Source: a virus. Taken from it: a stretch of 22,919 bases of DNA. The notes beneath the pieces were generated by a model. It was not told the DNA's origin. It made no database searches and saw only the letters and a program-made list of their open reading frames with translations. Position numbers and translations under genes: made by a program. Below are positions 2,906 to 22,919 of the stretch, piece after piece. Within the stretch, counting starts at the first letter, position 1. Each line of letters begins with the position of its first letter. The DNA lies in the IMG/VR virus record IMGVR_UViG_3300021197_000082, positions 1 to 22,919 of that record; one strand, given 5' to 3'.

Positions 2906-4132
2906 ATGGAATTATCACTAATAAGAAGTCTAATGGACAAAGAGTTTTATGATGAACATAGAGGTGCTAAATGCCCTGATAGGTTGTTCAGTAAAGACAC
3001 AAGAAAGATAAAGCAATCAATAGATAAAGCGATGGAGAGATACAGCAGGTCAGTTACACCTGATGAAATAGAAGCATTATTTATGACAGCTAATCCTACA
3101 TTCACCACAGCACAAAAGTCTGTGTACTCAAGTTTGTTTAACAGGATAAAGAAAGAACAAGCTATGGGCACAGATATAGCACAAGAGGTACTATCAAAGC
3201 TGTTCCAACAAGTTATTGGTGAGGACATTGCTAATCTAGGATTTGATTATGTGAATGGAGACAAGAGTAGTCTTGAACCATTACGTAGTCTACTAGAAAA
3301 ATACGGAGATGACTTCACACCTAACTTAAACATACAATGGGATGATATAGATATGGATACACTACTAGAGAAGAATGATATGGAAGCACGTTGGAGTTTT
3401 AATATACCAACTCTCACTAGAGTTATAGAGGGTATCAATGCAGGACACTTGATTGAGATAGGTGCTAGACCTAACACAGGTAAGACATCTTTCCATGCTA
3501 GTTTAATTGCTAGTCCTAGTGGGTTTGCCCATCAGGGTGCTAACTGTATCATCCTATGTAATGAGGAATCTGCACATAGAGTTGGTGCTAGGTACTTGAC
3601 AGCGGCCACAGGTATGACAATGCAAGAGATTAGAAAGAATCCTAGCAGGGCGAGAGATTTATATGCACCTGTTAAAGAACGTATCAAGATAAAAGATGCA
3701 ACAGGTCGTGATATGTCTTGGGTTGAGAGTGTCTGCAAGTCATACAAACCTGACCTAGTTCTATTAGATATGGGAGATAAGTTTGCTACTACAAGTGGGT
3801 TTGCTAGAGCAGACGAAGCCTTGAAAGCAAATGCAATATATGCTCGACAGATAGCTAAACAGCATGAGTGTGCTATGTTTTATATGTCACAGTTGAGTGC
3901 AGATGCAGAGGGTAGAATTGAACTGAATCAATCTATGATGGAAGGCAGTCGTACAGGTAAGGCAGCCGAAGCCGACCTTATGATTTTAATAGCTAAGAAT
4001 CCTACTACAACAGTAGAAGGACAAGAAGAAGATACCGAGAGACATATTAATGTAGTCAAGAACAAACTAACAGGGTGGCATGGTCGTGTAAGATGCCAAC
4101 TCGAATATAGAACAGCGAGGTATGTAGTATGA
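2906..4132 (+). CDS. Replicative DNA helicase, DnaB / T7 gp4-like
   Basis: A 408-residue RecA-fold ATPase expected to form a hexameric ring that unwinds DNA 5' to 3' at the fork. The Walker A motif is GARPNTGKTS (G186 to S195, with K193 binding phosphate). Walker B is LVLLDMGD (D288). A downstream MFYMSQLSADAEG stretch, about residue 330, fits the helicase motif that senses DNA and nucleotide. Residues 1-150 are helical and divergent and lack a zinc ribbon or TOPRIM domain, consistent with the separate primase gene upstream. AAGGAG at 2894-2899 sets the ATG at 2906. The stop overlaps the next gene as ATGA, so translation is probably coupled. Confidence 0.92.
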   Translation: MELSLIRSLMDKEFYDEHRGAKCPDRLFSKDTRKIKQSIDKAMERYSRSVTPDEIEALFMTANPTFTTAQKSVYSSLFNRIKKEQAMGTDIAQEVLSKLFQQVIGEDIANLGFDYVNGDKSSLEPLRSLLEKYGDDFTPNLNIQWDDIDMDTLLEKNDMEARWSFNIPTLTRVIEGINAGHLIEIGARPNTGKTSFHASLIASPSGFAHQGANCIILCNEESAHRVGARYLTAATGMTMQEIRKNPSRARDLYAPVKERIKIKDATGRDMSWVESVCKSYKPDLVLLDMGDKFATTSGFARADEALKANAIYARQIAKQHECAMFYMSQLSADAEGRIELNQSMMEGSRTGKAAEADLMILIAKNPTTTVEGQEEDTERHINVVKNKLTGWHGRVRCQLEYRTARYVV

Positions 4133-4587
4133 GTTTGGAGTGTAGATTCTGTAAGATTAAACTGACAGAGGAGAATTGGGCAGTAGGAAATATTAAACAA
4201 AAACAATACAAATGCAGGACATGTGATGGAATTATAGGAAGACAAAATTACCTCAAAAGAAAAGCAAGACAGTTGTTTGATTATTCAATTAAATCATATA
4301 GTAAAATAAAAGATGGTTATGTATATGCTATTACGAATCCTGCTTGGGAAGGTTGGGTAAAAATAGGTATGGCTATTGATGCAGAAGATAGGTGTAATGC
4401 ATATCAAACATCTAGTCCTTTGAGAGACTATAAGATAGAAACATCCGTGATTGTAAAAGATAGAAGAAAGGCAGAATCAGAAGCACACAAAAAAGCTAAA
4501 CAAATAGCTGGACAATGTGCAGGAGAATGGTTTAAGATGCCTATAGAAAATGCAAAACATATAATAGAGGAGTTGAGATGCGATTAA
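4129..4587 (+). CDS. GIY-YIG / T5orf172-type endonuclease with N-terminal zinc ribbon
   Basis: A 152-residue protein. Two CxxC pairs (C5/C8 and C29/C32) form a probable zinc ribbon. The nuclease domain follows: GYVYAI at residues 63-68, WVKIGMA at 76-82, R88 and TSSP at about 94-97. E116 and H120 in an ExxxH arrangement and EWF at 133-135 fit the T5orf172 branch of GIY-YIG nucleases. It overlaps the helicase (ATGA) and extends 10 bases past the polymerase ATG, so it is fully built into the replication operon. It may be a free-standing homing-type nuclease, or one acting on host or rival DNA or branched DNA. The sequence does not say which. Confidence 0.85.
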   Translation: MSLECRFCKIKLTEENWAVGNIKQKQYKCRTCDGIIGRQNYLKRKARQLFDYSIKSYSKIKDGYVYAITNPAWEGWVKIGMAIDAEDRCNAYQTSSPLRDYKIETSVIVKDRRKAESEAHKKAKQIAGQCAGEWFKMPIENAKHIIEELRCD

Positions 4588-6620
4588 TAGTAGATGTAGA
4601 GAACACAGTAATAGAGAGAGATGGTAAGTTACACTTAGACCCTTTTGAAGAAACTAATTCACTAGTTATGGTTGGATTACTTACTGCCAATGGAGAAGAA
4701 ACAATAGTAACGTTTGACCACAGTGAAGCAGACCCTACACCAAATGGTCACGAGATTGTGCAAAAAGCATTAGATGATGCTACTATTTTAATAGGTCACA
4801 ATATAGCATATGATTTAGTGTGGTTGTGGGAGTCAGGTTTCAAATACAATGGTTCAGTCTTTGATACAATGTTAGGAGAGTATGTACTACAACGTGGGCA
4901 GAAACGACCACTGTCTCTTGAAGCATGTGCAGAGAAGTATGAGTTAGATACACAAAAAGAAGGTACACTTAAAAAGTATTTCAGTGAGGGTTATACGACT
5001 AGAGATATACCCCATGCTGAACTAAGTGATTATCTTAGTGCTGACTTACATGCAACTAAAGAGTTATCTGACAGAATATATGCAAGGTTAAATAGTCCTA
5101 GTGATGCATGTCTTATGGATACTGTACTTCTTACTAATGATGTAGCCTGCTGTCTAGCACGTATATATCTTAGAGGCTTCTCTGTAAACATGGAAGCACT
5201 AGATGCAGTTAAGAAAGAGTTTGAAGATGAGAGGAGAAAGTTAAATACAGATTTACAATTACATGTAGCTAATCTAATGGGAGATACACCTATTAATTTA
5301 AATAGTCCTGAACAGCTATCTTGGGTTATCTATGGTAGAAAAGTTATTGACAAAACAGAATGGGCAAACTCTATAGACCCATACATGACTGATGTAAACT
5401 TTAGAAACTTAATTATACAAGGAACTAATGTTGTTCATAAAACACGTGCAGTAAGGTGTAGTGAGTGTGATGGTAAGGGTGAGATATATAAGATGAAAGT
5501 AGATGGTAATCCATATGCTAATCCTAGTAGGTGCAAGACCTGTAATGGAGAGGGTTATGTATTCCAAAAGACTGACGCTGTTGCAGGTCTAAGATTTAGA
5601 CCCCCTAGTCCTAAGTGGGCAAGTGCTAATGGTTTCTCTACATCTAAACAAAACTTAGAGACTTTAGAAAGGGCAGCTCGTGGTAAGAACATGACAGATG
5701 CTGTAGACTTTCTGTATAAGGTTAGAAGACTTAGTGCAGTAGATACTTACTTATCTTCTTTCATTGAAGGTATTAAAATACATACGAAGAAAGATAGAAA
5801 GCTACACGTAAGATTGTTACAACATAGGACAGCGACAGGCAGGTTTAGTGGTGCTGACCCTAATATGCAGAACATGCCTAGAGGTGGTACATTCCCTGTT
5901 AAAAGAGTGTTTGTATCACGTTGGGAAGGTGGAAAGATACTTGAAGCTGACTTTGCACAGTTAGAGTTTCGCACTGCCGCTTACCTATCACAAGATAAAA
6001 CAGCTATGAAGGAGATTAAAGATGGCTTTGATGTACACGCATACACTGCTTCTGTCATTACAGAATCAGGTCAGAAGACTACTAGGCAAGAAGCAAAAGC
6101 TCATACCTTTGCACCCCTCTATGGAGCAACAGGATTTGGGAGAACGTCTGCTGAAGCAAAATATTATGAGCAGTTCACAAAAAAATACGAAGGGGTTGCA
6201 CTATGGCACTCCAGATTGGCTAAAGAAGCTATGACTAGCAAGGCTATAAGAACACCATCAGGTAGAGAGTTTTCTTTTCCTAATGTGTACAAGAACAAAC
6301 ATGGTAGGGTGTCTAACTTTACACAGATAAAGAATTACCCTGTGCAGTCATTTGCTACAGCAGATATAGTACCTTTAGCATTACTTTATATTGATAAATT
6401 ACTTGACACCATGAAGAGTTGTGTGGTAAATACAGTACACGATAGTATTGTAATTGACGTACATCCTGAAGAAGAGAGGGCAGTTTTGGAAGCTATAAAT
6501 ACTACAAACAGAAATCTGCCTAGTTTAGTTAATAATAAGTGGGGTATAGAGTTTAATGTTCCACTATTATTAGAATCAAAAATAGGTAATAATTGGCTTG
6601 ACACGAAAGACGTAAGCTGA
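4578..6620 (+). CDS. Family A DNA polymerase with DnaJ-type zinc-finger insert
   Basis: This 680-residue polymerase replicates the phage genome. The N-terminal 3'-5' exonuclease keeps its acidic residues: D6/E8 (VDVEN), D79 (IGHNIAYD) and Y152/D156 (YLSAD). The thumb starts near NLNSPEQL (240-247). Two CxxCxGxG motifs then form a partial DnaJ zinc finger (C294/C297 and C319/C322) before the STSKQNLETL segment (354 onward). Polymerase motifs follow: TGRFS near residue 420, motif A with D458 (ADFAQLEFR), the O-helix with R503, K507, F511 and Y515, and motif C with H621-D622-S623. All catalytic residues are present. A DnaJ insert between the exonuclease and polymerase parts is a published feature of phage HMO-2011. 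The start overlaps the upstream nuclease gene, with GAGGAG just before the ATG. Confidence 0.96.
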   Translation: MRLIVDVENTVIERDGKLHLDPFEETNSLVMVGLLTANGEETIVTFDHSEADPTPNGHEIVQKALDDATILIGHNIAYDLVWLWESGFKYNGSVFDTMLGEYVLQRGQKRPLSLEACAEKYELDTQKEGTLKKYFSEGYTTRDIPHAELSDYLSADLHATKELSDRIYARLNSPSDACLMDTVLLTNDVACCLARIYLRGFSVNMEALDAVKKEFEDERRKLNTDLQLHVANLMGDTPINLNSPEQLSWVIYGRKVIDKTEWANSIDPYMTDVNFRNLIIQGTNVVHKTRAVRCSECDGKGEIYKMKVDGNPYANPSRCKTCNGEGYVFQKTDAVAGLRFRPPSPKWASANGFSTSKQNLETLERAARGKNMTDAVDFLYKVRRLSAVDTYLSSFIEGIKIHTKKDRKLHVRLLQHRTATGRFSGADPNMQNMPRGGTFPVKRVFVSRWEGGKILEADFAQLEFRTAAYLSQDKTAMKEIKDGFDVHAYTASVITESGQKTTRQEAKAHTFAPLYGATGFGRTSAEAKYYEQFTKKYEGVALWHSRLAKEAMTSKAIRTPSGREFSFPNVYKNKHGRVSNFTQIKNYPVQSFATADIVPLALLYIDKLLDTMKSCVVNTVHDSIVIDVHPEEERAVLEAINTTNRNLPSLVNNKWGIEFNVPLLLESKIGNNWLDTKDVS

Positions 6621-12499: not shown

Positions 12500-15400
12500 C
12501 TATCTCTGTTTAGAATATATGGATTTAGAGCCTGTCAAAGCAAGTAGATAATCTACATCTTTTGCATCAAAAAAGTTAGGCTCTCTTCCTTCTTTAATTT
12601 TAAACTCTTTCAAGGCTGCTCTCTTAGTAACTTCATAGTTACCTCTAAATCTAGTTATAAGACCAGATAAAGCGGCATCTTCTGTGCCTGTCTTCATCTC
12701 TGCTCTAATCATCTGCTTCATAACTTTAATGTAATCTCTAACACGTGAAGCTGTTTCATCAGCACTTGCCTTATCTTCTAAGGCAGTAGCTAATACTTCA
12801 GGCATTTCTTTGTTCATGGCTTCGCCCATCTCTTTATTAGTATATTTATCTACAGTACTAGAACTAGTCCTAGACATAAAATCTCTGTAGGTAAAACCCA
12901 ACTGATTTAGTCTTTGTACATAGTCAGGTGGTACTCTGTTTAAAGTAGCACCAAACATTATTTTCATAAATGGTAATATTCTTTCAGGAACTTCCTCAAA
13001 CCGTGGGTCTTCCTTAAACGGAATATCATCTTGGTCAAAGCCTACAGATTCACCTACCCTACTTAATCTAGACTTAAATGGTTTAAATACACCAAGAAAA
13101 AAGGACTCAATGCCATCTCTTTTTTTAGGCTCTGAGTTATAATCTCTTTGTCTTTGGTATCCATCCCCTATACCTAATTGTTGAGGAGCCGCAGCAAAGT
13201 CAGCTATTTGATAAAAAGGTTGACCATAGCCACTTATAGCTTCGCCTAAATATCTACCTAAATTGTTGTACGTGTCCTGCATTTCTAGTGGGTCAGTTGA
13301 ACTACTAAGTAAGTCTTCTGTCATTAAAGATATAGGACCTTTACCTCTAAAGTTAGTTCCTGTAAAACCCTCAATCATTTCAGATATATTTCTTTTACTG
13401 CCAAAGTCATTTACTAACTTAGGATTAAATCCTCTGTGTATCATCTCACCTATTAACAAGTATGGTGTTATAGGAAAGAATGGTCTAGCATCAAACTCAT
13501 TACCCTTACCATCTTTTAAGTTGTACCATTCAGAACCTGCATTGCCACCATCAGGGTCACGTAGTAAATAGCCTAGTGCTATTAAAGGCATACCACCTGC
13601 AATACCTTCAGCTAACTGTCTATACATACCATCACTGATTTGTTGCCCTTTAAACTTAGATGCACCCATTCTAAATAAAGCAGTACCTGCACCTGTAATG
13701 TTGTAATTATAAGTCATCTCTATGGCTTTAAACATAAATCTAGGAAAAGGAATAGCTAATGTTAAACCTGATTTAACAATAAAGTTATTAGCCTGTCTAA
13801 ATAAAGAAAACTTTGGTTGTGACGCATACGTAAACTCTAAGGCATCATCAACAGCTTTAGCTATCATGTTCTCATCTATATTCTCTGTAAGCCTTCCTGA
13901 CTTTAAAACATCTACCATGTCAATATTTCTATTAAATAATTGACGTTGAATAGAGGTGGTAAATGCACCATTACGATATATAGCTTCTTGTAAACGGTTA
14001 AAGTAGTTTAGTGTAGTAATACCACTTTCCCACTTATCTAATACAGTATTTGTACCCTCACTTAGTTTACTCTGCTTATCAGCTAGTGCAGACTGAGAAG
14101 GATTTTTTTTATTTAAAATGTTCTTAACTTCTGAATATTGATTAAAGTATCTTGTTTTTTGTTCAGGAAAAGCATCTAGCATAAACTGTGCTATATTAGC
14201 TGCATCTTCTTGATTGCTGTAGGTATGTTTTAACTGTGCAATAGTGTTTTTAAAACCAAACTTTTTATTAGGATTAATACCTGATTCAAATGCATATACA
14301 AGAGTATCAACACCTGACCTTATTGTCTGTGACAGTGTATTACGTGTAGCAGTAGCAACACCACTAACTAATGTTAATCTTCTAATATCTTCTAGCTTTC
14401 GTAATGTAGTGCCGAGTCTATCCGTTGTCTCTGCTTCAACTTGTTCAGCCACTTCACCACTTGTTTTTCTTCTAGCAGCTTTAGTAAAATTTTTCTGTAG
14501 AGCACTTAAATTACCTAGAGTTTTACCTGCCATACTAGCATCTGTAAACAAAGCCGCAGCTATCTCTCTTCTAGTGACACCATACTTACCCATAATACTA
14601 GTCATTTGGTCTAGACTCTCTTCAGACATATTACTAGTTATGTTAAGCAGTCTCTCACTGACACGTTCTTTTGCTTGGAGTGGAGCAGTCAAGGATTTTA
14701 ATGTTACATTATCTCCTATTACTTCAGGCTCATCCACAAGTTTAAGTGTTTTGTCTTTTAATCCTGCAACTATTTCAGATACAGCGGCAGTAGTTCTTTC
14801 AAATATGTCAAAGCTAATAGTGGGTTCAATTACATCTTCATCTAAGTTCATGTTCTTAAAGAAACCTTTAGCCTTATCTGACTGCTTAATTACCTCTGAA
14901 TCAATTCCCTTAATCTTGCCCTTCTTAGGACCTTTCTTATATCTTAATATGGCTTTATCACCATAAATATTTGTTATACCCTTTGCTAAATTTTCTCTTA
15001 TATCATCCGATTGTACACCAAGTTCTAAATTCTTTTTTAGTGCAGACTCTGTTTGTTCTTCTCGTACTTGCTTCCATGCTTCATCAAGTTCACCACGAGT
15101 AGCTATAGATATTTTCTTCTCTGCATTATACTTACCAATACCTGATATAGTTCCAGCAGTTAGTCCACCAATACCTGCAACTGTTACAGTTCTACCATAA
15201 TCTATTTCTTTCTTAGCACCCATCTCAACTTCAGCACCCTGCACCATAATATCAGTTACTGCGGCACCTGCCGCCTCAATACCAAAAGTTATGCCTGCTG
15301 CTTTTAGTGCTTGTTTAAATGGAGATACTCCTAGTGCTCTTGAACTACCTGTTACTGCTCTACCAATACCTGCTGTAAGGGCAGTTAAAGGGTCAGATAA

Positions 15401-16123
15401 TGCAGCCAACACATTTCCACCTACGTTATCTGCTATATCTGATATAGTATCTAGTGCGTTCATACCCTCATATCTTTTAGAGTCATATATATTTCTTACA
15501 CTATCTGCTCTTTGATATAAACGTAATGCTCTTTCTCGTTGTTCAGCATACTGATTAGCTTTTTGAATACCTTCTTTTGTTCCTAATTCACTAGCTTCTA
15601 TTTCTTTTTCTTGTAAGCTCTTTAACCAAGACACTTCGGTAGCAGCATCTAAAGAGTTACCACTTATAAATCTATAATTGTCCATGAAATCATCAATGAC
15701 ATTTTCATTTGTTAATTCTTGACCACCGAATAGTTTACCAAATAGTAGATTATCTGATTTAGCATCTAGTGCTTGACCATATCTATCTTTACGATACTGC
15801 AATATGTCAGCAACAAGTTCATCGTCTTGTTCTAATGCTTTTATTGATGTGGGAGGAGGGGGAGTTTCACGTATATCTGCTAAACGTTCTTCTGTGGGTA
15901 CGTAACCTAAGTCTTGTACTGTAGCAGGTGCAGGGGGAACATATACATCTCCCTCTTGATAAAAGTCTTTATTTGACAAGGCATTAGAATCTTGACTAGA
16001 AACTACTTCGGCATCATCTTTGTCTGCCTGATAAAAGTCAGATGCACTTAAACCAGTGTTAGTAGTTTCTTCTTCATCAACCTTCTCTGCTTGATAAAAG
16101 TCTGAAGTACTCAATCCTGCCAT
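12500..16123 (-). CDS. Large internal / ejected virion protein (1207 aa)
   Basis: The largest gene in the window and last of the - strand virion operon. Residues 1-58 hold three copies of a short motif, LSxxDFYQ. An acidic, proline-containing linker and helical regions follow. Gly/Ala-rich hydrophobic stretches at about 233-257, 276-296 and 311-330 could insert in membranes. A later hydrophobic stretch includes SGLTLAIPFPRFMF. Size, position at the end of the tail operon and membrane-prone segments resemble T7 gp15/gp16, which leave the virion and build the DNA channel through the envelope. I see no lysozyme or transglycosylase motif. The stop of the preceding gene is immediately followed by this ATG (TAAATG). 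The role is inferred. Confidence 0.75.
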   Translation of the reverse strand: MAGLSTSDFYQAEKVDEEETTNTGLSASDFYQADKDDAEVVSSQDSNALSNKDFYQEGDVYVPPAPATVQDLGYVPTEERLADIRETPPPPTSIKALEQDDELVADILQYRKDRYGQALDAKSDNLLFGKLFGGQELTNENVIDDFMDNYRFISGNSLDAATEVSWLKSLQEKEIEASELGTKEGIQKANQYAEQRERALRLYQRADSVRNIYDSKRYEGMNALDTISDIADNVGGNVLAALSDPLTALTAGIGRAVTGSSRALGVSPFKQALKAAGITFGIEAAGAAVTDIMVQGAEVEMGAKKEIDYGRTVTVAGIGGLTAGTISGIGKYNAEKKISIATRGELDEAWKQVREEQTESALKKNLELGVQSDDIRENLAKGITNIYGDKAILRYKKGPKKGKIKGIDSEVIKQSDKAKGFFKNMNLDEDVIEPTISFDIFERTTAAVSEIVAGLKDKTLKLVDEPEVIGDNVTLKSLTAPLQAKERVSERLLNITSNMSEESLDQMTSIMGKYGVTRREIAAALFTDASMAGKTLGNLSALQKNFTKAARRKTSGEVAEQVEAETTDRLGTTLRKLEDIRRLTLVSGVATATRNTLSQTIRSGVDTLVYAFESGINPNKKFGFKNTIAQLKHTYSNQEDAANIAQFMLDAFPEQKTRYFNQYSEVKNILNKKNPSQSALADKQSKLSEGTNTVLDKWESGITTLNYFNRLQEAIYRNGAFTTSIQRQLFNRNIDMVDVLKSGRLTENIDENMIAKAVDDALEFTYASQPKFSLFRQANNFIVKSGLTLAIPFPRFMFKAIEMTYNYNITGAGTALFRMGASKFKGQQISDGMYRQLAEGIAGGMPLIALGYLLRDPDGGNAGSEWYNLKDGKGNEFDARPFFPITPYLLIGEMIHRGFNPKLVNDFGSKRNISEMIEGFTGTNFRGKGPISLMTEDLLSSSTDPLEMQDTYNNLGRYLGEAISGYGQPFYQIADFAAAPQQLGIGDGYQRQRDYNSEPKKRDGIESFFLGVFKPFKSRLSRVGESVGFDQDDIPFKEDPRFEEVPERILPFMKIMFGATLNRVPPDYVQRLNQLGFTYRDFMSRTSSSTVDKYTNKEMGEAMNKEMPEVLATALEDKASADETASRVRDYIKVMKQMIRAEMKTGTEDAALSGLITRFRGNYEVTKRAALKEFKIKEGREPNFFDAKDVDYLLALTGSKSIYSKQR
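15956..16102 (-). repeat. Three direct repeats encoding LSxxDFYQ motifs
   Basis: Within the 5' end of the 1207-codon gene, the 12-base string TTGATAAAAGTC (+ strand) occurs at 16091-16102 and 15956-15967, with a one-base variant (CTGATAAAAGTC) at 16028-16039. Spacings are 63 and 72 bases, so the frame is kept. They encode LSTSDFYQ (residues 4-11), LSASDFYQ (25-32) and LSNKDFYQ (49-56), separated by variable acidic linkers. Confidence 0.85.
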
Positions 16124-17227
16124 TTACTTAATGCCTGTTAAGTATATAGAAGTATCCATACTACCTGTCCAGATAATAGGTCCTTTACCTGAAGTAGTAT
16201 TATATATTTTACCAATTATAAATTGTGAAGGGTCAATTTTATTTTTTACAGTATCTATAGGAACTAAGTAGTCACTTTGTCCTAACGTTTTTAAAGTAGA
16301 CTTCATGCCCGGCATACTTAATGCATTTGTTCTTAATGCATTTTCAGTAACATTTTGTAAAGCATCTGCGTATACTTTCTGAACGTCTTTATACTGTTCC
16401 GTACCTGTTTTTATATCAAATTGAGGAGTTCCATCAGCACTTAAACTAACTGCTATACCTGCTGCTTTTATACCATCAGCTAAAACTCTGTTATAATCTT
16501 TATTTACTTGTTGTTTATCAATAGAGCCTAACATAGTATTTTCTCTTAATGTTTTATTTAAATTAGCTTTGGCTTGTTCATTGCCTAATTTTGCTGTTTC
16601 CATGCTTAATGAATATTCTTTAGCATCAACCATCTTTGACCTATCAAGACTTAATCCAGCTACATCAAATTTATCTGCTTGTTTAGTTGCACCAAATTGT
16701 GCATCCATTTCAGATTGTAAACCCTTAGTAATATCTGCCTTTTTAAGGAAACCTACACCACCCCTAAGATTCTCAGGAACTTTAATCATTGTTGATGGTC
16801 TTCTTACAAAGTTATTAATGTAGTCTCCCATACCCTTACCACCAGTAACAAGGTTTGCTTGATTGATTAGACCCTTCATATCACCTGCTTTAGATATATG
16901 TGTTCTTAAATCGCTGACTAACTGCTTGCCACTACTTAGTGTACCACCTGCTCCTGAATATAATTGGGCAGCAAAGTCAGCTTTAGTCATGCCTTCAGGT
17001 ATATCAACTCCTGCTTTACTCATAAAGGATGCTAAGTTAGAAAGTGTCTCTTCTAGCTCTCTTTGGTCTTCTTCAAATCTTTCTTCTTTACGACTAGCTC
17101 TAGTTACATGATACTCTCTTACCCTGTCTGAACGTTCAGCAGTTCTTCTCATATCATCTTTTAATCTTTCGTCAAGACTTTTAGATAGACCCCCTATGAA
17201 AGAGCCAATATTAAAACCTGCCGCCAT
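16124..17227 (-). CDS. Probable virion protein (367 aa), function unknown
   Basis: A 367-residue protein between two likely virion genes, with stop and start codons directly abutting on both sides (TAAATG). The N-terminus (MAAGFNIGSFIGGLSKSL) is a Gly-rich amphipathic stretch. A highly charged helix rich in Arg and Glu, about residues 18-65, probably forms a coiled coil. The remainder is mixed, with Gly/Ser-rich loops (YSGAGGTLSSG) and long Lys/Gln/Asn helices. No enzymatic motif is visible. Its place just before the large internal protein suggests a partner in the internal core or tail, like the smaller ejection proteins of T7-like phages. This rests on gene order only. Confidence 0.65.
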   Translation of the reverse strand: MAAGFNIGSFIGGLSKSLDERLKDDMRRTAERSDRVREYHVTRASRKEERFEEDQRELEETLSNLASFMSKAGVDIPEGMTKADFAAQLYSGAGGTLSSGKQLVSDLRTHISKAGDMKGLINQANLVTGGKGMGDYINNFVRRPSTMIKVPENLRGGVGFLKKADITKGLQSEMDAQFGATKQADKFDVAGLSLDRSKMVDAKEYSLSMETAKLGNEQAKANLNKTLRENTMLGSIDKQQVNKDYNRVLADGIKAAGIAVSLSADGTPQFDIKTGTEQYKDVQKVYADALQNVTENALRTNALSMPGMKSTLKTLGQSDYLVPIDTVKNKIDPSQFIIGKIYNTTSGKGPIIWTGSMDTSIYLTGIK

Positions 17228-17752
17228 TTATTTTCTCCTACCCATCAAGCCTTTAGGTTGTTCTTCAGGCATATCTTCTTCCATTTCTATGGGTTCATCT
17301 ACCATAGGTTTATCTTCTTTACCTTCTTGTTCATTTAGTTGCATTTGTAACTTACGTGCTGTTTTAGCTACAAGTGTATTCCTTGTGCGTTTTTCATTCA
17401 TTGGAGCTTCTTTACTCAAGCCACTGTCATACTTTATGCCTGCACTATCTCCTACAAGCATCATCATCTCTACTAACACAGGTAATACTAACATACCTAC
17501 ATCTACACTATGAACACCTTCCATAACGTTGCCTAGTTGCATTGTATTAGCAATACTTGTTACAGGAACACCCATTTCCATTACATCAGTTAATTGGTCT
17601 AAAAATTCTTCTGATGACATTCTTTCCAAGTAATATTCTATTGCATCATCTACTGTTGAATATTTAGGGGGAGACTGCCAAGGTCTAGCACCCAACTCAT
17701 GTGTCATAGACATTCCCGGGATAGGTGCATCAAAGGTTTGTTCTTTAAGCAT
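17228..17752 (-). CDS. Conserved marine-phage structural-type protein (174 aa)
   Basis: A 174-residue protein with the features IPGMSMTHELGARPW near the N-terminus, VDDAIEYYLERMS around residues 34-46, NVMEGVHSVDVGMLVLPVL near 75-93 and a charged, acidic C-terminal tail (EPIEMEEDMPEEQ). From memory, proteins with this arrangement occur in cyanophage and pelagiphage virion gene clusters, with no known function. The hydrophobic run at about 84-100 may be a buried or membrane-touching helix. It overlaps the upstream small gene by eight bases and abuts the downstream gene without a gap, indicating coupled translation in the virion operon. Confidence 0.7.
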   Translation of the reverse strand: MLKEQTFDAPIPGMSMTHELGARPWQSPPKYSTVDDAIEYYLERMSSEEFLDQLTDVMEMGVPVTSIANTMQLGNVMEGVHSVDVGMLVLPVLVEMMMLVGDSAGIKYDSGLSKEAPMNEKRTRNTLVAKTARKLQMQLNEQEGKEDKPMVDEPIEMEEDMPEEQPKGLMGRRK

Positions 17753-17960
17753 CTTTTAACTCGTTTCTTTTGTCACGTAATATTTTTACATGATTAGCTA
17801 CACGATACAAAGGATTATCAATTTTACTCTGTTCTTTATTCATCATAGATTTCTTAGGTGCTAATAGACCTGCTGATTTAGTAGGCTTCTTTTCATCACC
17901 TATAATTTGATTAAGGTCTAGATTCATGTGTGCTACAATAGCAGGATTAAACCCTCTCAT
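17745..17960 (-). CDS. Small hypothetical protein in virion operon (71 aa)
   Basis: A 71-residue basic protein starting MRGFNPAIVAHMNLDLNQ. A GTG at 17969 is possible, but AGGAG sits eight bases before the ATG at 17960, so I chose that start. The sequence is Lys/Asn-rich with a mid-region PTKSAGLLAPKKS and a C-terminal basic helix (VKILRDKRNELK). It overlaps the 3' end of the 706-residue gene by 14 bases and the next gene by eight. It may be a small virion or assembly protein; nothing in it shows a specific role. Confidence 0.6.
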   Translation of the reverse strand: MRGFNPAIVAHMNLDLNQIIGDEKKPTKSAGLLAPKKSMMNKEQSKIDNPLYRVANHVKILRDKRNELKDA

Positions 17961-20067
17961 ATACTGCACTCCTTTTCTTCTCTACTACAAAGTCCATTAA
18001 ATATTTAGTTATACTTTTTAATACAGGTTTATCTGCAATGAATGTTGCATATTTTTTACCATATGTACCATATAGTTTCTGAAACCATTCAGGTGCATCA
18101 AACTTAACCCACATACGAAATACAAACCATCTTGGGTCATTCTTACCATACACTTCACGTGCTACCCAACAGAATAGATTACCAAAACCATGTTGTATAC
18201 CTGCTCCTAGAACAGTACCAACTAAACCACCCACAGCTTGTCCTGTCTGTGAGCCTGATTGTTCTGCCTGTACTTGTTTACGTGTCTCTGCATCTAACTG
18301 TGCTATAGCCATATCTGCTACTCTATCCTGTGAGTTTTCAGCAGATGTCCATGCCCATTCCATTGTATCACCATAGTATGTCCACAAGTTATTATATGCT
18401 TGATTACCTATATCCAATATAGCATTAGCATTTAATTCGTTGGCACGATTAACTGCGGCAGTATCTGCTGTAGCTAACTCTCTTCGCCATTGTGCATTGT
18501 TCTGTGCTATAACTAGTTGATTTTGTGCATTAAATTGGTCACGTTGATTATTTAATTCAGAGTTAAATCTTTCTATAGTATTCACTTGACCTGCATTATA
18601 TTGTGCTTGAGCATTAGACTGTGATGCATTAAACTGTGCAACTTGTGATGCTAAGTTAGAAAAGAATTGGTCAGTTTGTTGTTGACTTGTAGCATTAAAC
18701 TGCCTACTAGCATTTGTAGCAGCTTGGTCTGTAAACATAGATTGTATTCTTTGTTGTGCCTTAAACATTTCTGTCTGTTGTTGATTAGTTAAATTAGCCA
18801 TATCAGACTGCAAAAAAGACTGTGCATTTTGTACAGCAGCCTGTTGTCTGTTGTTTAAGTTAGATAAATCCATATTAGCTAAAGCAGAAGCCTGTGCTAT
18901 TACAAGAGCTTGATTATTATTTAAGTTTTCTAAGTTAGCTGTATTAGTTAGTCTACTATTTTCTAATTGTACTTGTTGTTCAGCAGTAAAGTTTTGGTTA
19001 GCTATATCACCTATTTTAGATGCATTAGCAACTCTTGCTTGAAATGCTTGGTCAAATTCCTGACCTATAAACTGTGCTCTTTGCTGTGCGGCAAGCATAG
19101 CTCTTTGTTGTCTGTTAGATAAGTTCTGTGTCTCAAATTGTGCCTGTATACTAGCATCAGCTTGTGCTATAGGTAATGCAGATTCTAGTGCACCCTGTAT
19201 AAGTGCCTGACCTGCCATGCTAGATGCACCTAAACCTCTAGCCGCCATCTGTGCTTCAATACCACGTAATGTTCCTGCTGCCCATGCAGGTGGATTGCTT
19301 GCATCAAAGTTTGCAGTAAGCTGTGCTAACTGTCCTTGTACTGTTGCTTGTGCAGAAGGTGTAGCTGTAGCAGCCTGTATCTGTTCTGCATATGTGGAAG
19401 CTGTTTGAGCATTAGCTACACCACCACTAATTAATTCACCTGATTGTACTTGTCTTTGTACAGGATTATCTATTAATGTAGCATTACCTTGAGCAGCCGT
19501 TAAACTACCAACACTTGATGCTGTCTGTTGAGCTGCCGTAACTTTAGCTCTAGGGTCATCTTCATTTACTTGAGCAGCTTGAGTAGCACTTAATGCTGAA
19601 TCTACAGCAGGTGCGGCAGTTTGTGCCTGCATTGTCTGTGCTTGTTTTTCCTGTGTAGGACTAGCTTGTGCAGTAGTAGCTAAAGCAGTCGGTACTGCTA
19701 CACTACCTGTAACTGTACCCATACCTGCTTGTACATTTTGACTTGCATCTTGGGGTATTCCACTAGCGACTGTTACACCACCTTGAGGAACTCCGGGTTG
19801 ATACATTCTTTGAATTGTTGTTTGACCAATAGTTTGACCTGTAGCTTTAGGAGTTATAGGTGTAGTTGTCTGACCACCATTAGCCATCTTAACTACAGAG
19901 CCACCACGAGCCATCTCCTGTGCTTTCTCTTGATATGTAATCATCTCACGTTGTTTATCAGGATTCTGTTGTAGATAGCTGTCAAACTCTTCCATGCGAC
20001 CTGCATATCCCATGCGACTAGCTATCTTTTGCATCCCTTGTGGCTTGAAGCCTTTAAACATTGCCAT
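17947..20067 (-). CDS. Ala/Gln/Asn-rich structural protein with 11-residue repeats (706 aa)
   Basis: A 706-residue protein in three parts. Residues 1-60 are charged and probably helical. Residues about 60-290 are low-complexity, rich in Ala, Gln, Thr and Gly, and likely extended. Residues 315-546 keep an 11-residue rhythm in which Asn recurs at the same position (315, 348, 359, 370, 381, 403, 414, 425, 458, 480, 491, 502, 513, 524, 546), giving long helices. The C-terminal domain (about 610-706) has a Gly-rich hydrophobic segment (AVGGLVGTVLGAG) and then an aromatic, basic region (FCWVAREVYG, RWFVFRMWVKF). I recall the latter from other marine phage structural proteins. It is probably a virion filament, tail or ejection component. 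Its ATG overlaps the upstream stop (TAATG). Confidence 0.72.
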   Translation of the reverse strand: MAMFKGFKPQGMQKIASRMGYAGRMEEFDSYLQQNPDKQREMITYQEKAQEMARGGSVVKMANGGQTTTPITPKATGQTIGQTTIQRMYQPGVPQGGVTVASGIPQDASQNVQAGMGTVTGSVAVPTALATTAQASPTQEKQAQTMQAQTAAPAVDSALSATQAAQVNEDDPRAKVTAAQQTASSVGSLTAAQGNATLIDNPVQRQVQSGELISGGVANAQTASTYAEQIQAATATPSAQATVQGQLAQLTANFDASNPPAWAAGTLRGIEAQMAARGLGASSMAGQALIQGALESALPIAQADASIQAQFETQNLSNRQQRAMLAAQQRAQFIGQEFDQAFQARVANASKIGDIANQNFTAEQQVQLENSRLTNTANLENLNNNQALVIAQASALANMDLSNLNNRQQAAVQNAQSFLQSDMANLTNQQQTEMFKAQQRIQSMFTDQAATNASRQFNATSQQQTDQFFSNLASQVAQFNASQSNAQAQYNAGQVNTIERFNSELNNQRDQFNAQNQLVIAQNNAQWRRELATADTAAVNRANELNANAILDIGNQAYNNLWTYYGDTMEWAWTSAENSQDRVADMAIAQLDAETRKQVQAEQSGSQTGQAVGGLVGTVLGAGIQHGFGNLFCWVAREVYGKNDPRWFVFRMWVKFDAPEWFQKLYGTYGKKYATFIADKPVLKSITKYLMDFVVEKKRSAVYERV
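18430..19125 (-). repeat. Hendecad (11-residue) protein repeat region
   Basis: Codons for residues 315-546 of the 706-residue protein. Asn falls on one register of an 11-residue period at 14 of the 20 positions from 315 to 524, and again at 546. It is usually followed by Leu, Phe, Ala or Ser. Units are often paired into 22 residues (NLxNxQQ-type in the first half, FNAxxxxxxxQ-type in the second). Such hendecads form straight or right-handed coiled coils. Confidence 0.8.
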
Positions 20068-20490: not shown

Positions 20491-21618
20491 CTATAGTTCT
20501 GCATCAAATGCTATAGAAGTAGAAGTACTATTATTAGATATAATAGCTACTGCTTCTCCTGCAACTAATCCTGAACTTACCACTGGTGTTATTTCTATTT
20601 GATTGTTAAAAGTTCCTCCATCAGAATCCGTTGCTATAATTAAACTAGTCAAAGCATCTGTACCCCCTGCACTATGAGCTAAAAAAGTATTGACGTTACC
20701 ACTTAAAACTATACTAGGAACATCACGTAATGGGGTAGATAAAGGTACAGTACACGAACCCTGTGTTGTGGTGTGTGCACCACCATGAGCATATCTTTTA
20801 AAAGTTCCCCCTGTGCCATCTTTTTCAATGTTAAAATACCTTTGACACAATCTTAGTTCTTCCCCAAATGACCTATGCTCAAATGGTGTGGCTTGTGAGC
20901 CTACTTCTAGTTGGACTCCTGTAATTTCTAGTGTGTTATCTGTTGATGCAAATATGCTTCCTATACCTGCTGCTCTATTGGCAGGAGTATCTGATTCAAG
21001 AGTAGCACTTACAGTTCCCCCTGTAAATGTAGAACCTCCATGAATAAAAAAATTTGCTTGTAATCCAGTTGTGTTATCATTGTCTATTTCTGTGCTAGAT
21101 GCTGCAGCAACAGTAAAAGTATATCTTGCCCATGATGTACCTATTGTGTGTACTTTAACAGCCTGTCTATTTGTGCCACTACTAAGTCTTAATTCTGAAG
21201 CTATAACTCTACTAGCATTTGATTTTGCATAAAAGGATAAAGTAAAGGCATTTGTAGAAGTGCTAGATGCTTTTAGCTGTTGGCAATTTAAACCTTCTAT
21301 ATGTTGTCTAATAATTAATACTTCTCCTGCTGCAATAGAAGTATCTGCTGTAGTACAATCTATTTTTAAAGCATTTGAAAATCCATCTAAATCTGTAACA
21401 GCAGATTGTGACATAGTAAATCTTCCTGCTGAAGCATCACCTTCTACCATAGTAAATCTATCTAATGTAAAATAGCCAGAAGCAGCACCTAATCCAGTAA
21501 CACTAGTTGCCCTCTGTGCCACTTGCATTGCACCATTGATGATAATATTCCTTCGCCCACCAATCTGTCCATTGGTTAGGACTTCACCCATCTTTGCTAA
21601 TTCTGCTGCTTTGGTCAT
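20491..21618 (-). CDS. Tail fibre-like receptor-binding protein (375 aa)
   Basis: A 375-residue protein rich in Ser, Thr, Gly and Ala with beta-sheet character. The N-terminal segment has GGRRNIIINGAMQVAQR (about 20-36). The middle region (about 45-230) looks like a carbohydrate-binding-module-type beta sandwich, with FTLSFYAKS and RYTFTVAA strands. At about 235-262 is ITGVQLEVGSQATPFEHR then LCQRYF, a module I know from many phage tail fibres. The C-terminal 110 residues are also beta-rich and may hold the receptor-binding tip. It overlaps the upstream paralogue gene (ATGA). It probably attaches to the tail and binds host surface glycans; the receptor is unknown. Confidence 0.78.
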   Translation of the reverse strand: MTKAAELAKMGEVLTNGQIGGRRNIIINGAMQVAQRATSVTGLGAASGYFTLDRFTMVEGDASAGRFTMSQSAVTDLDGFSNALKIDCTTADTSIAAGEVLIIRQHIEGLNCQQLKASSTSTNAFTLSFYAKSNASRVIASELRLSSGTNRQAVKVHTIGTSWARYTFTVAAASSTEIDNDNTTGLQANFFIHGGSTFTGGTVSATLESDTPANRAAGIGSIFASTDNTLEITGVQLEVGSQATPFEHRSFGEELRLCQRYFNIEKDGTGGTFKRYAHGGAHTTTQGSCTVPLSTPLRDVPSIVLSGNVNTFLAHSAGGTDALTSLIIATDSDGGTFNNQIEITPVVSSGLVAGEAVAIISNNSTSTSIAFDAEL

Positions 21619-21998
21619 GCTGAGTCTCCGTTGATTTGTCCAAAATTCTGTGATGTATCTGTAAGAGCATCAGCAGCTGTACCACTTCTAGTTTCCATTT
21701 TAATAGTTGAAGTCGTAGCAGTATTAAAATTAGTTTGTGAATTGTTAGCTTCAACAGAGGAATTTGTAGTTGCAAGACTATAATTTACATTACCCATATT
21801 TGTAGAGAATCCAAATGTAGTTAAGCCTGTTCCATTATCTGTTATTCCACTAGAATTAAAACTGTCACTTGTTGCTACTGTACCTGTTCCGTTCCATTTA
21901 ACCCAAAACTTTGCTGTTCCCTGATTAACAGTAGCCATAGGTGTTGAATTATTACTACTTGCATCTGTTAATGTGTTTACTCTTAATATACTAGCCAT
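21615..21998 (-). CDS. Tail-type paralogue 1 (127 aa)
   Basis: Starts at ATG 21998, overlapping the previous stop as TAATG; a longer frame exists upstream but would run into the neighbouring gene. It begins MASILRVNTLTD and shares with the next two genes a core of the type KFWVKWNGTGTV, SDSFNSSGITDNGTG. This beta-rich module is common in marine phage tail fibres and appendages. It is the most diverged of the three: the C-terminal half is Thr/Asn/Ser-rich (ATTNSSVEANNSQ). Probably a small fibre, cap or adaptor subunit. It overlaps the tail-fibre gene as ATGA. Confidence 0.72.
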   Translation of the reverse strand: MASILRVNTLTDASSNNSTPMATVNQGTAKFWVKWNGTGTVATSDSFNSSGITDNGTGLTTFGFSTNMGNVNYSLATTNSSVEANNSQTNFNTATTSTIKMETRSGTAADALTDTSQNFGQINGDSA

Positions 21999-22411
21999 TA
22001 TGCGAGGTCTCCATTTACTGTAGCACACGCTTGATTTGCGTCATCTGCGTTACCAGAAGAATTAGCACCCTGTATTCTTAATACTGTAGTTGTTGGTGCT
22101 GTGTCATTCTTTACTGCTAAATTATTAGAATTGTTATCATCTGTGAATGAACCAAATGTATAACAATAAAGAGCGTTTGACATAGCATTACTAAAAGTTA
22201 CTACATAATCTCCAGTTCCTCCATCACTTAAAGAGGTCACATTAAAACTATCTCCAGATTCATTAAATGTACCTGCACCATCTAGGTTAACCCAAACTTT
22301 ATTTAACCCTTGTTGCAGATTAGTTGTTGTACTATTGCCTTCACCTGTAACAAGTATAGAACCTGCTGTGGTTACACCTGTGAGTGTATCTACTTTTAAT
22401 TGTGATGCCAT
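21998..22411 (-). CDS. Tail-type paralogue 2 (137 aa)
   Basis: A 137-residue protein beginning MASQLKVDTLTGVTTAG, then QGLNKVWVNLDGAGTF, DSFNVTSLSDGGTGDY and NAMSNALYCY. These align with the flanking genes, showing a tandem duplication. Both ends overlap neighbours by one base (TAATG). The short N-terminal segment (QLKVDTLTG) resembles the start of many phage fibre proteins and may be the attachment part, with the GTGDY core as the beta domain. Likely a virion surface or tail appendage protein; specific role unknown. Confidence 0.72.
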   Translation of the reverse strand: MASQLKVDTLTGVTTAGSILVTGEGNSTTTNLQQGLNKVWVNLDGAGTFNESGDSFNVTSLSDGGTGDYVVTFSNAMSNALYCYTFGSFTDDNNSNNLAVKNDTAPTTTVLRIQGANSSGNADDANQACATVNGDLA

Positions 22412-22845
22412 TATGCTAAATCTCCTTGTGCAATTACTTGAACTTGAGCAACATCAATCGCAGAACCTCCGGAATTACTAACATCCACTTGTCTGTTTCC
22501 TGTGGCAGAAGTACCTTTTCCACATACTCCTCTGAGACCACCCCCACTATCTCCTTGTGCAAAACCACCAAAGGCATAGTCATTTGCACCATTAAAAGCG
22601 TTAGTCCATGCAGGAGTATAATCTCCTGTACCATTATCAGTAACACCTGAAGTATTAAAGCTATCATTAGTACTTATAGTGCCAGTGCCTGTAAATGCAA
22701 CCCAAGCCTTTGCTATTCCTTGCACAGTATTCTGTGTGACTGCACCACCATCAGATACATAGGTTGAGGTATTAGCCATCTTAACATTTGACCCACCACT
22801 ACCTGCTTTATCTACAATGGTGTCTACATTTAATTGTGAACTCAT
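22411..22845 (-). CDS. Tail-type paralogue 3 (144 aa)
   Basis: Starts at ATG 22845 with GGAG six bases upstream; a TTG at 22857 is in frame but unnecessary. It begins MSSQLNVDTIVDKAGSGG, a familiar phage fibre N-terminus. The core is QGIAKAWVAFTGTGTIS, DSFNTSGVTDNGTGDYTP and a NAFNGANDYAFGG segment, then a Gly-rich loop (GDSGGGLRG). It aligns with the two genes that follow. Its start overlaps the stop of a further tail-type gene cut by the window edge (ATGA), so the array may continue. Confidence 0.75.
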   Translation of the reverse strand: MSSQLNVDTIVDKAGSGGSNVKMANTSTYVSDGGAVTQNTVQGIAKAWVAFTGTGTISTNDSFNTSGVTDNGTGDYTPAWTNAFNGANDYAFGGFAQGDSGGGLRGVCGKGTSATGNRQVDVSNSGGSAIDVAQVQVIAQGDLA

Positions 22846-22919
22846 ACTATACTCCAATATCCATTAACAGTGACTGTTGCCGACTGTGTTATAGGACCAC
22901 CTGATACACCATTCTCATC
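22842..22919 (-). CDS. 3' end of a tail-type gene, cut by the window edge
   Basis: An open frame entering from the right edge on the - strand encodes the last 25 residues of a protein (ending GPITQSATVTVNGYWSIV) and stops at 22842-22844, overlapping the next ATG as ATGA. The ending GPIT...VTVNGxW is typical of C-termini of phage fibre-type proteins that fold as a terminal beta strand. The rest lies outside the window. The identification rests on a short stretch and on its tail-gene neighbours. Confidence 0.6.
   Translation of the reverse strand, partial: DENGVSGGPITQSATVTVNGYWSIV

Follow-up and report, generated by a model that had tools for sequence, protein, structure and literature searches.

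A rod of 11-residue repeats in a late protein of HMO-2011-type marine podophages: length variation in whole units and a possible role in DNA delivery

The window analysed here is a 22,919-base virus record (IMGVR_UViG_3300021197_000082; one strand, 5' to 3'), the genes of which match Puniceispirillum phage HMO-2011. On its minus strand, an open reading frame at 20067-17947 encodes a 706-residue rod protein (hereafter gA), which opens a conserved late block composed of the rod protein, a small gene, and proteins of approximately 175, 370-930, and 800-1,890 residues. The other members of this block in the window, all on the minus strand, are gB (17745-17969, a small gene of 74 aa by ORF call), gC (17228-17752, 174 aa, with one transmembrane-like segment according to ORF and segment analysis), gD (16124-17227, 367 aa, mostly helical in an AlphaFold2 model with a pLDDT of 83.8, and in a gp15/gp20-like position), and gE (12500-16123, 1207 aa, with hydrophobic segments and, from its ORF and location, in a gp16-like position). 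HMO-2011-type phages share the gene order gA-gB-gC-gD-gE with phiM6 (genes 25-28 and 30) and CHOED (genes 13-17), and HTVC103P keeps it with extra small genes (gp59 to gp52). Tail fibre genes are located upstream of the gA block.

Proteins of the gC family (~175 aa, unnamed) start with FDAPIPGxSLT...PWxxPP, contain a single hydrophobic stretch, and finish with an acidic tail, which in many cases stops close to GLM. The N-terminus of gE (15950-16123, minus strand) contains three LSxxDFYQ copies (LSTSDFYQ, LSASDFYQ, and LSNKDFYQ) with acidic linkers between them, a triple pattern for which no match was found among the ORFs of the other loci compared. At 21615-22857 (minus strand) lies a series of tail-fibre-like genes, small (137-148 aa) and similar to one another, which start like MASQLKVDTLTG; two of them match phrog_11355, and about a dozen small tail-fibre-like genes also occur in a row in HMO-2011 (gp29-gp41). 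On the plus strand, the gene at 4578-6620 encodes a DNA polymerase A that includes a zinc domain of the DnaJ type (residues 282-330), as annotated in HMO-2011 too. A 152-aa ORF at 4129-4587, between the helicase and polymerase genes, has a Cys4-like start and a GIY-YIG-like look and is possibly a homing-type nuclease.

In a tblastn comparison, gA is 65% identical to HMO-2011 gp25 (YP_008320287, annotated as hypothetical) across residues 1-703, and a search of IMG/VR yielded 80 relatives. Homologs are present in roseophages, pelagiphages, Sinorhizobium phiM6 and rhizobial phages, Vibrio CHOED, and Aeromonas MQM1, and all but one are labelled hypothetical protein. Full-length similarity and the same late-gene neighbourhood place gA in the HMO-2011-type gp25 family, and the source is a marine short-tailed phage (podophage) of the abundant HMO-2011 type. 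The coat protein of HMO-2011 itself is P22-like, and genes for a long tail were not seen there. No match to gA was found in Pfam, PHROGs, or PDB, either by sequence or by profile; when the single sequence was searched against PDB with E-values up to 1, the sole match was an unrelated NUDIX hydrolase, and a Foldseek search of the gA model against PDB returned nothing at E < 0.001, the top matches being generic long helices. In the literature, we found neither a published function for gp25-family proteins nor any virion proteomics of the HMO-2011-type group or of gA, and the label "virion protein" given in the initial annotation is thus something that we infer. In a bacterial genome search with an alignment of closer gA relatives, matches were detected only in contigs of marine metagenome bins. 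Two pairs of these contigs (L310 and L311, L309 and L312) are identical in name, length, and match but are assigned to MAGs from two phyla (Flavobacteriales TMED123 and Neomarinimicrobiota MED589), and they are probably phage contigs misbinned into both. One rod homolog, from a Manatee Spring podovirus (L092, 7378-9969; MW202701), is named "huntingtin", evidently a low-complexity misannotation.

The hendecad rod of gA covers residues ~301-548 (18424-19167, minus strand), as delimited by repeat analysis, anchor lengths, composition, and conservation. Asn occupies 14 of the 20 register positions 315+11k through residue 524 and occurs again at 546; residues 315 and 546 correspond to window positions 19125 and 18430, in agreement with the interval 18430-19125 first assigned to the repeat. 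When residues 300-560 were shuffled 20,000 times, the best 20-position run at period 11 never reached 14 Asn (maximum 11), and any other period from 5 to 29 gave at most 8 Asn per best run in the real sequence. Autocorrelation likewise gives an 11-residue signal, with maxima at lags 22, 33, 44, and 11 for identical residues and at lags 22, 44, 33, and 11 for Asn. Units resembling NLxNxQQ lie at residues 315, 359, 403, 425, and 458, and FNA or FNS units are found at 457, 479, 490, 501, and 512. Since all of these units share one phase, the initial proposal that the repeat type switches without a phase slip is genuine. A 33-base tandem repeat is absent from the DNA of the window, so the 11-residue pattern is maintained at the protein level. 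The 11-residue repeat in gA is confirmed, and the case for it is stronger than first claimed.

A comparison of repeat number among relatives, which had been proposed as a check, was based on rod length, taken as the distance between two anchors (from the Ala of PIA, residue 301, to Asn 524) in profile alignments. The distances observed in 246 distinct sequences are 135, 146, 157, 168, 179, 212, 223, 278, 311, 312, and 333 residues, of which all but the 312 are equal modulo 11; in other words, rods differ by whole 11-residue units in 245 of 246 homologs, which form ten length classes from 135 to 333 residues. The exception (L208) has one additional residue in the final unit beside the C-terminal anchor. 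The chance that ten of eleven distinct lengths fall into one modulo-11 class is about 4e-9, and as a control, the C-terminal lengths of the same 246 proteins fill all eleven modulo-11 classes, with 44 distinct values. As many homologs are environmental fragments and close relatives, we quote distinct lengths and changes on the tree and not raw counts alone; at least 10-11 length changes are required on the anchor tree. Among 74 close IMG/VR sequences (the query included), whose total lengths range from 610 to 1282, query residues 270-575 correspond to exactly 306 residues in every case, and no indel of any size was detected across them in relatives down to 57% overall identity. Pelagibacter phages include both the 157 and 311 classes, an approximately two-fold difference; hence, the idea that rod length tracks the host is not supported, and length is not simply fixed by envelope width.

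Neither Pro nor Cys occurs in 51,812 rod residues from the 246 homologs (Pro accounts for 5.3% of residues outside rods), and across the family the rods contain about 18% Gln, 17% Ala, and 15% Asn. Charged residues are concentrated at register positions 5 and 9 (45% versus 18% expected). In the C-terminal half of the rod, hydrophobic residues at positions 11 (Phe), 8 (Ile/Val), and 4 (Leu) form one helix face with 11 residues per 3 turns (3.67-residue spacing), and in the N-terminal half they occupy positions 2 and 10, others cluster near 8 and 11, and a 2.75 spacing is also followed, a pattern consistent with two seams. Within the 223 and 157 classes, conservation is highest at register position 1, the Asn (0.96 and 0.79, respectively); positions 4 and 6 narrowly exceed it in the 311 class. 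The periodic Asn layer reported earlier is real, and it ranks first in conservation in two of these three large classes. In all three, Asn is on average more conserved than the large hydrophobic residues, which is unusual in comparison with an ordinary coiled coil.

An AlphaFold2 monomer model of gA, of low confidence (pLDDT 62, pTM 0.28), places helices at residues 284-334, 384-456, and 462-575 and no strands in the rod, with low-confidence helix breaks near 335-339, 360, 380, and 457-461. It neither proves a single unbroken helix nor supports a compact globular fold. Whole-unit length changes, the lack of Pro in rods, and predicted helices without strands together support a hendecad helical rod, so residues ~301-548 are well supported as a long alpha-helical rod. 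Of the continuous helical rod originally proposed, the long hendecad helix therefore stands, whereas its unbroken course is questioned by the breaks in the model.

The rod is flanked by several distinct regions, all on the minus strand. At the N-terminus is a helical domain (residues 1-53, 19909-20067; pLDDT 85-94 at residues 11-50), which occurs in the 223, 212, and 333 classes, followed by a linker (residues 55-240, 19348-19905) whose pLDDT is mostly 32-64 and which is probably disordered, judging from the model. Immediately before the rod, alignments and AlphaFold2 helices define a conserved helical domain (residues 244-312, 19132-19338) with the consensus IPxWAxGA...RGLxxSS...ALPIAQ, which served as the N-terminal anchor. 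After the rod, both approaches identify a conserved segment (residues 549-605, 18253-18423) with the pattern WxxxxDxxxWxWxSxEN, overlapping the C-terminal anchor. Next is a Gly/Ala-rich, uncharged hydrophobic segment (residues 609-628, 18184-18243), detected by a segment scan of homologs; such a segment lies at or near the C-terminus in 114 of 142 proteins of the 223 class, versus 12 of 246 for an N-terminal control region; members of the 157 and 311 classes have a weak or amphipathic one. The segment may contact a membrane. The last region is an aromatic domain (residues 633-693, 17989-18171; pLDDT 85-95) starting with CWVAREVYG, whose pattern CWVAREVYG...W..FR.W...AP.W...LY has no Pfam or PHROG name. 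Of the 161 ORFs in the 223 class, 70 carry it; none from other classes or among the other ORFs compared does. The Gly-rich segment and the aromatic domain thus do follow the rod, as initially described, but the latter is an optional extension, and we rejected it as a part of the machine.

The neighbours of gA offer some indication of its function. The typical podovirus ejection operon encodes a small membrane protein (gp14-like), a tunnel protein (gp15-like), and a larger muralytic gp16-like protein (PMC8954989), and the gA-gE block fits this layout. By position, gC, gD, and gE could be the three classical ejection proteins, with gA as an additional one. The protein in the gE position of pelagiphage HTVC103P (gp52) ends in a phage lysozyme domain (PF00959), as expected of a muralytic ejection protein; the window's own gE showed no phage lysozyme domain match. 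No match was found for gC, gD, and gE of the window in Pfam or PHROGs, nor for the gD fold in PDB at E < 0.001 by Foldseek, where the top matches were generic long helices. Profile-to-sequence comparison of gA, gC, gD, and gE with P22, T7, and P-SSP7 proteins gave probabilities of about 1% or below throughout, with sensitivity limited by the use of single sequences as targets. Because neither profile nor fold matched the ejection proteins of T7, P-SSP7, or P22, we did not file gA as a member of those families.

Of the three functions offered earlier for the rod (ejection tube, fibre shaft, and tail ruler), gene context favours the first; a fibre shaft is possible, and a ruler is unlikely in a short-tailed phage. 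We give about an even chance to the hypothesis that gA acts as a pilot protein or is ejected, and that its rods come together as a DNA conduit. It would be a structural protein in which residues ~301-548 form a hendecad helix (11 residues per 3 turns), and several copies of it would most likely bundle side by side. The virion would hold the protein until infection, on which it would be released; its rods could then form or line part of the conduit that takes DNA through the envelope of the cell, while the Gly/Ala-rich segment at the C-terminus would engage a membrane. Candidate polar faces lining the lumen are register positions 3 and 7, or 1, 5, and 9. By analogy, such an action would parallel that of the phiX174 H pilot tube or of the helical channels in podovirus ejectosomes. 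Against the conduit hypothesis are the lack of any sequence or profile match between gA, gC, gD, or gE and T7 gp14-16, P-SSP7, or P22 gp7/gp20/gp16 proteins, the lack of a PDB fold match for gA and gD, the chance that gC, gD, and gE by themselves make up the gp14/gp15/gp16 set and leave gA another role such as a tail needle, the low confidence of the helix model, the weak C-terminal hydrophobic segment in the 157 and 311 classes, and the two-fold rod difference among Pelagibacter phages.

The main alternative, albeit doubtful, is a tail needle, plug, or thin fibre: gA would then use the hendecad rod as a shaft in the form of a parallel (perhaps trimeric) right-handed coiled coil, closing the tail and contacting the host surface, and the variable C-terminus would be the tip. 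P22 gene 26 sits between tail genes and ejection genes 7, 20, and 16, and gA is similarly placed before gC-gD-gE with the tail fibre genes upstream of it; moreover, known tail needles are coiled coils, including that of SU10 (PMC9509320), and the C-terminal part of gA is highly variable, given its 44 distinct lengths and its optional aromatic domain. However, gA has no profile match to P22 gp26, its typically Gly/Ala-rich hydrophobic C-terminus would be odd for a solvent-exposed tip, and a low-confidence linker of ~190 residues together with an amide-conserved, hydrophobic-poor rod is unlike a simple needle.

Somewhat more improbable in our opinion is a role inside the head, where gA would arrange DNA or the ejection proteins as part of a core stack, a portal extension, or a scaffold-like rod and would not itself be the conduit. 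The ejection proteins of T7 and phiM1 stack on the portal as an internal core (PMC8954989, PMC11440229), and the occurrence of gA and gC in nearly identical sets of phage records would suit such a component, but the strictly kept register and the rows of conserved amides point to an assembly that is long and regular, and the hydrophobic C-terminal segment suggests membrane contact.

The quantum of 11 might instead be a by-product of 33-base duplication or deletion in a flexible, low-complexity Asn/Gln-rich linker with no structural register. A 33-base tandem array is carried in the DNA of one gA relative (L191) and suggests a route of unit addition; however, the window and ctYwJ313 have no such array. 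No indels occur in the 306 aligned residues of the 74 relatives, a single rod out of 246 falls out of phase, and the absence of Pro and the register-specific conservation require selection. This explanation is very unlikely and, given the lack of off-register indels, largely refuted. Although a long repetitive helical protein changing length by units looks ruler-like, the idea of a tail-length ruler or tape measure has almost no probability because these phages are short-tailed podoviruses, genes for a long tail were not seen in HMO-2011, whose coat protein is P22-like, and the 9.2 nm tail of MQM1 (PMC10410586) is far below the span of its own 179-residue rod (~27 nm if fully helical; lengths in nm assume 0.15 nm per residue).

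Returning to the conduit hypothesis, the strict register, whole-unit lengths, and conserved Asn rows predict a long regular helical assembly and are sharply testable, and natural length variants of gA make it possible to ask what fixes the length of a DNA conduit. We would even suggest, as a bolder and rather unlikely proposition, that this abundant group of marine dsDNA podophages delivers its genome through an amide-rich, hendecad-only alpha-helical barrel with a length in quanta of ~1.6 nm (about 20 to 50 nm), convergent with the phiX174 H tube. If the conduit hypothesis is true, amide-rich helical DNA-delivery tubes arose independently in ssDNA and dsDNA phages.

The phiX174 H tube (PDB 4JPP) is a decameric helical DNA tube of 17 nm with an amide-lined lumen (PMC7354561). 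Similar to H (PMC7354561, Table 1), the gA rod is long and helical, with 11-residue repeats and Gln/Asn-rich faces. Unlike H, which belongs to a small ssDNA phage and whose coiled coil combines eleven heptads and three hendecads (PMC7354561), the gA rod consists of hendecads only, about 12 to 30 units across the family, and a search of PDB chains with the single sequence and with the profile revealed no homology between the two proteins. With the T7 gp14/gp15/gp16 and P22 gp7/gp20/gp16 operons, the block shares adjacent late genes of rising size and, in some members, a muralytic last protein (PMC8954989), but it differs from both in having an extra rod protein and in lacking detectable sequence or profile homology. 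In SU10, five ejection proteins lie next to each other (PMC9509320). The ejection channels of DEV (gp73/gp72) and N4 (gp52/gp51) are all-helical, similar to the rod of gA, and the lumen in DEV is lined by the long helix of gp73 (PMC10925440, PMC12633501); unlike gA, DEV gp73 has only about 155 aa, the available part of its description mentions no hendecad array, and gA matches no PDB chain. The closest counterparts are HMO-2011 gp25 and the other gA homologs, which share the anchors, the hendecad register, and the gene block and differ in their terminal domains and, by multiples of 11, in rod length.
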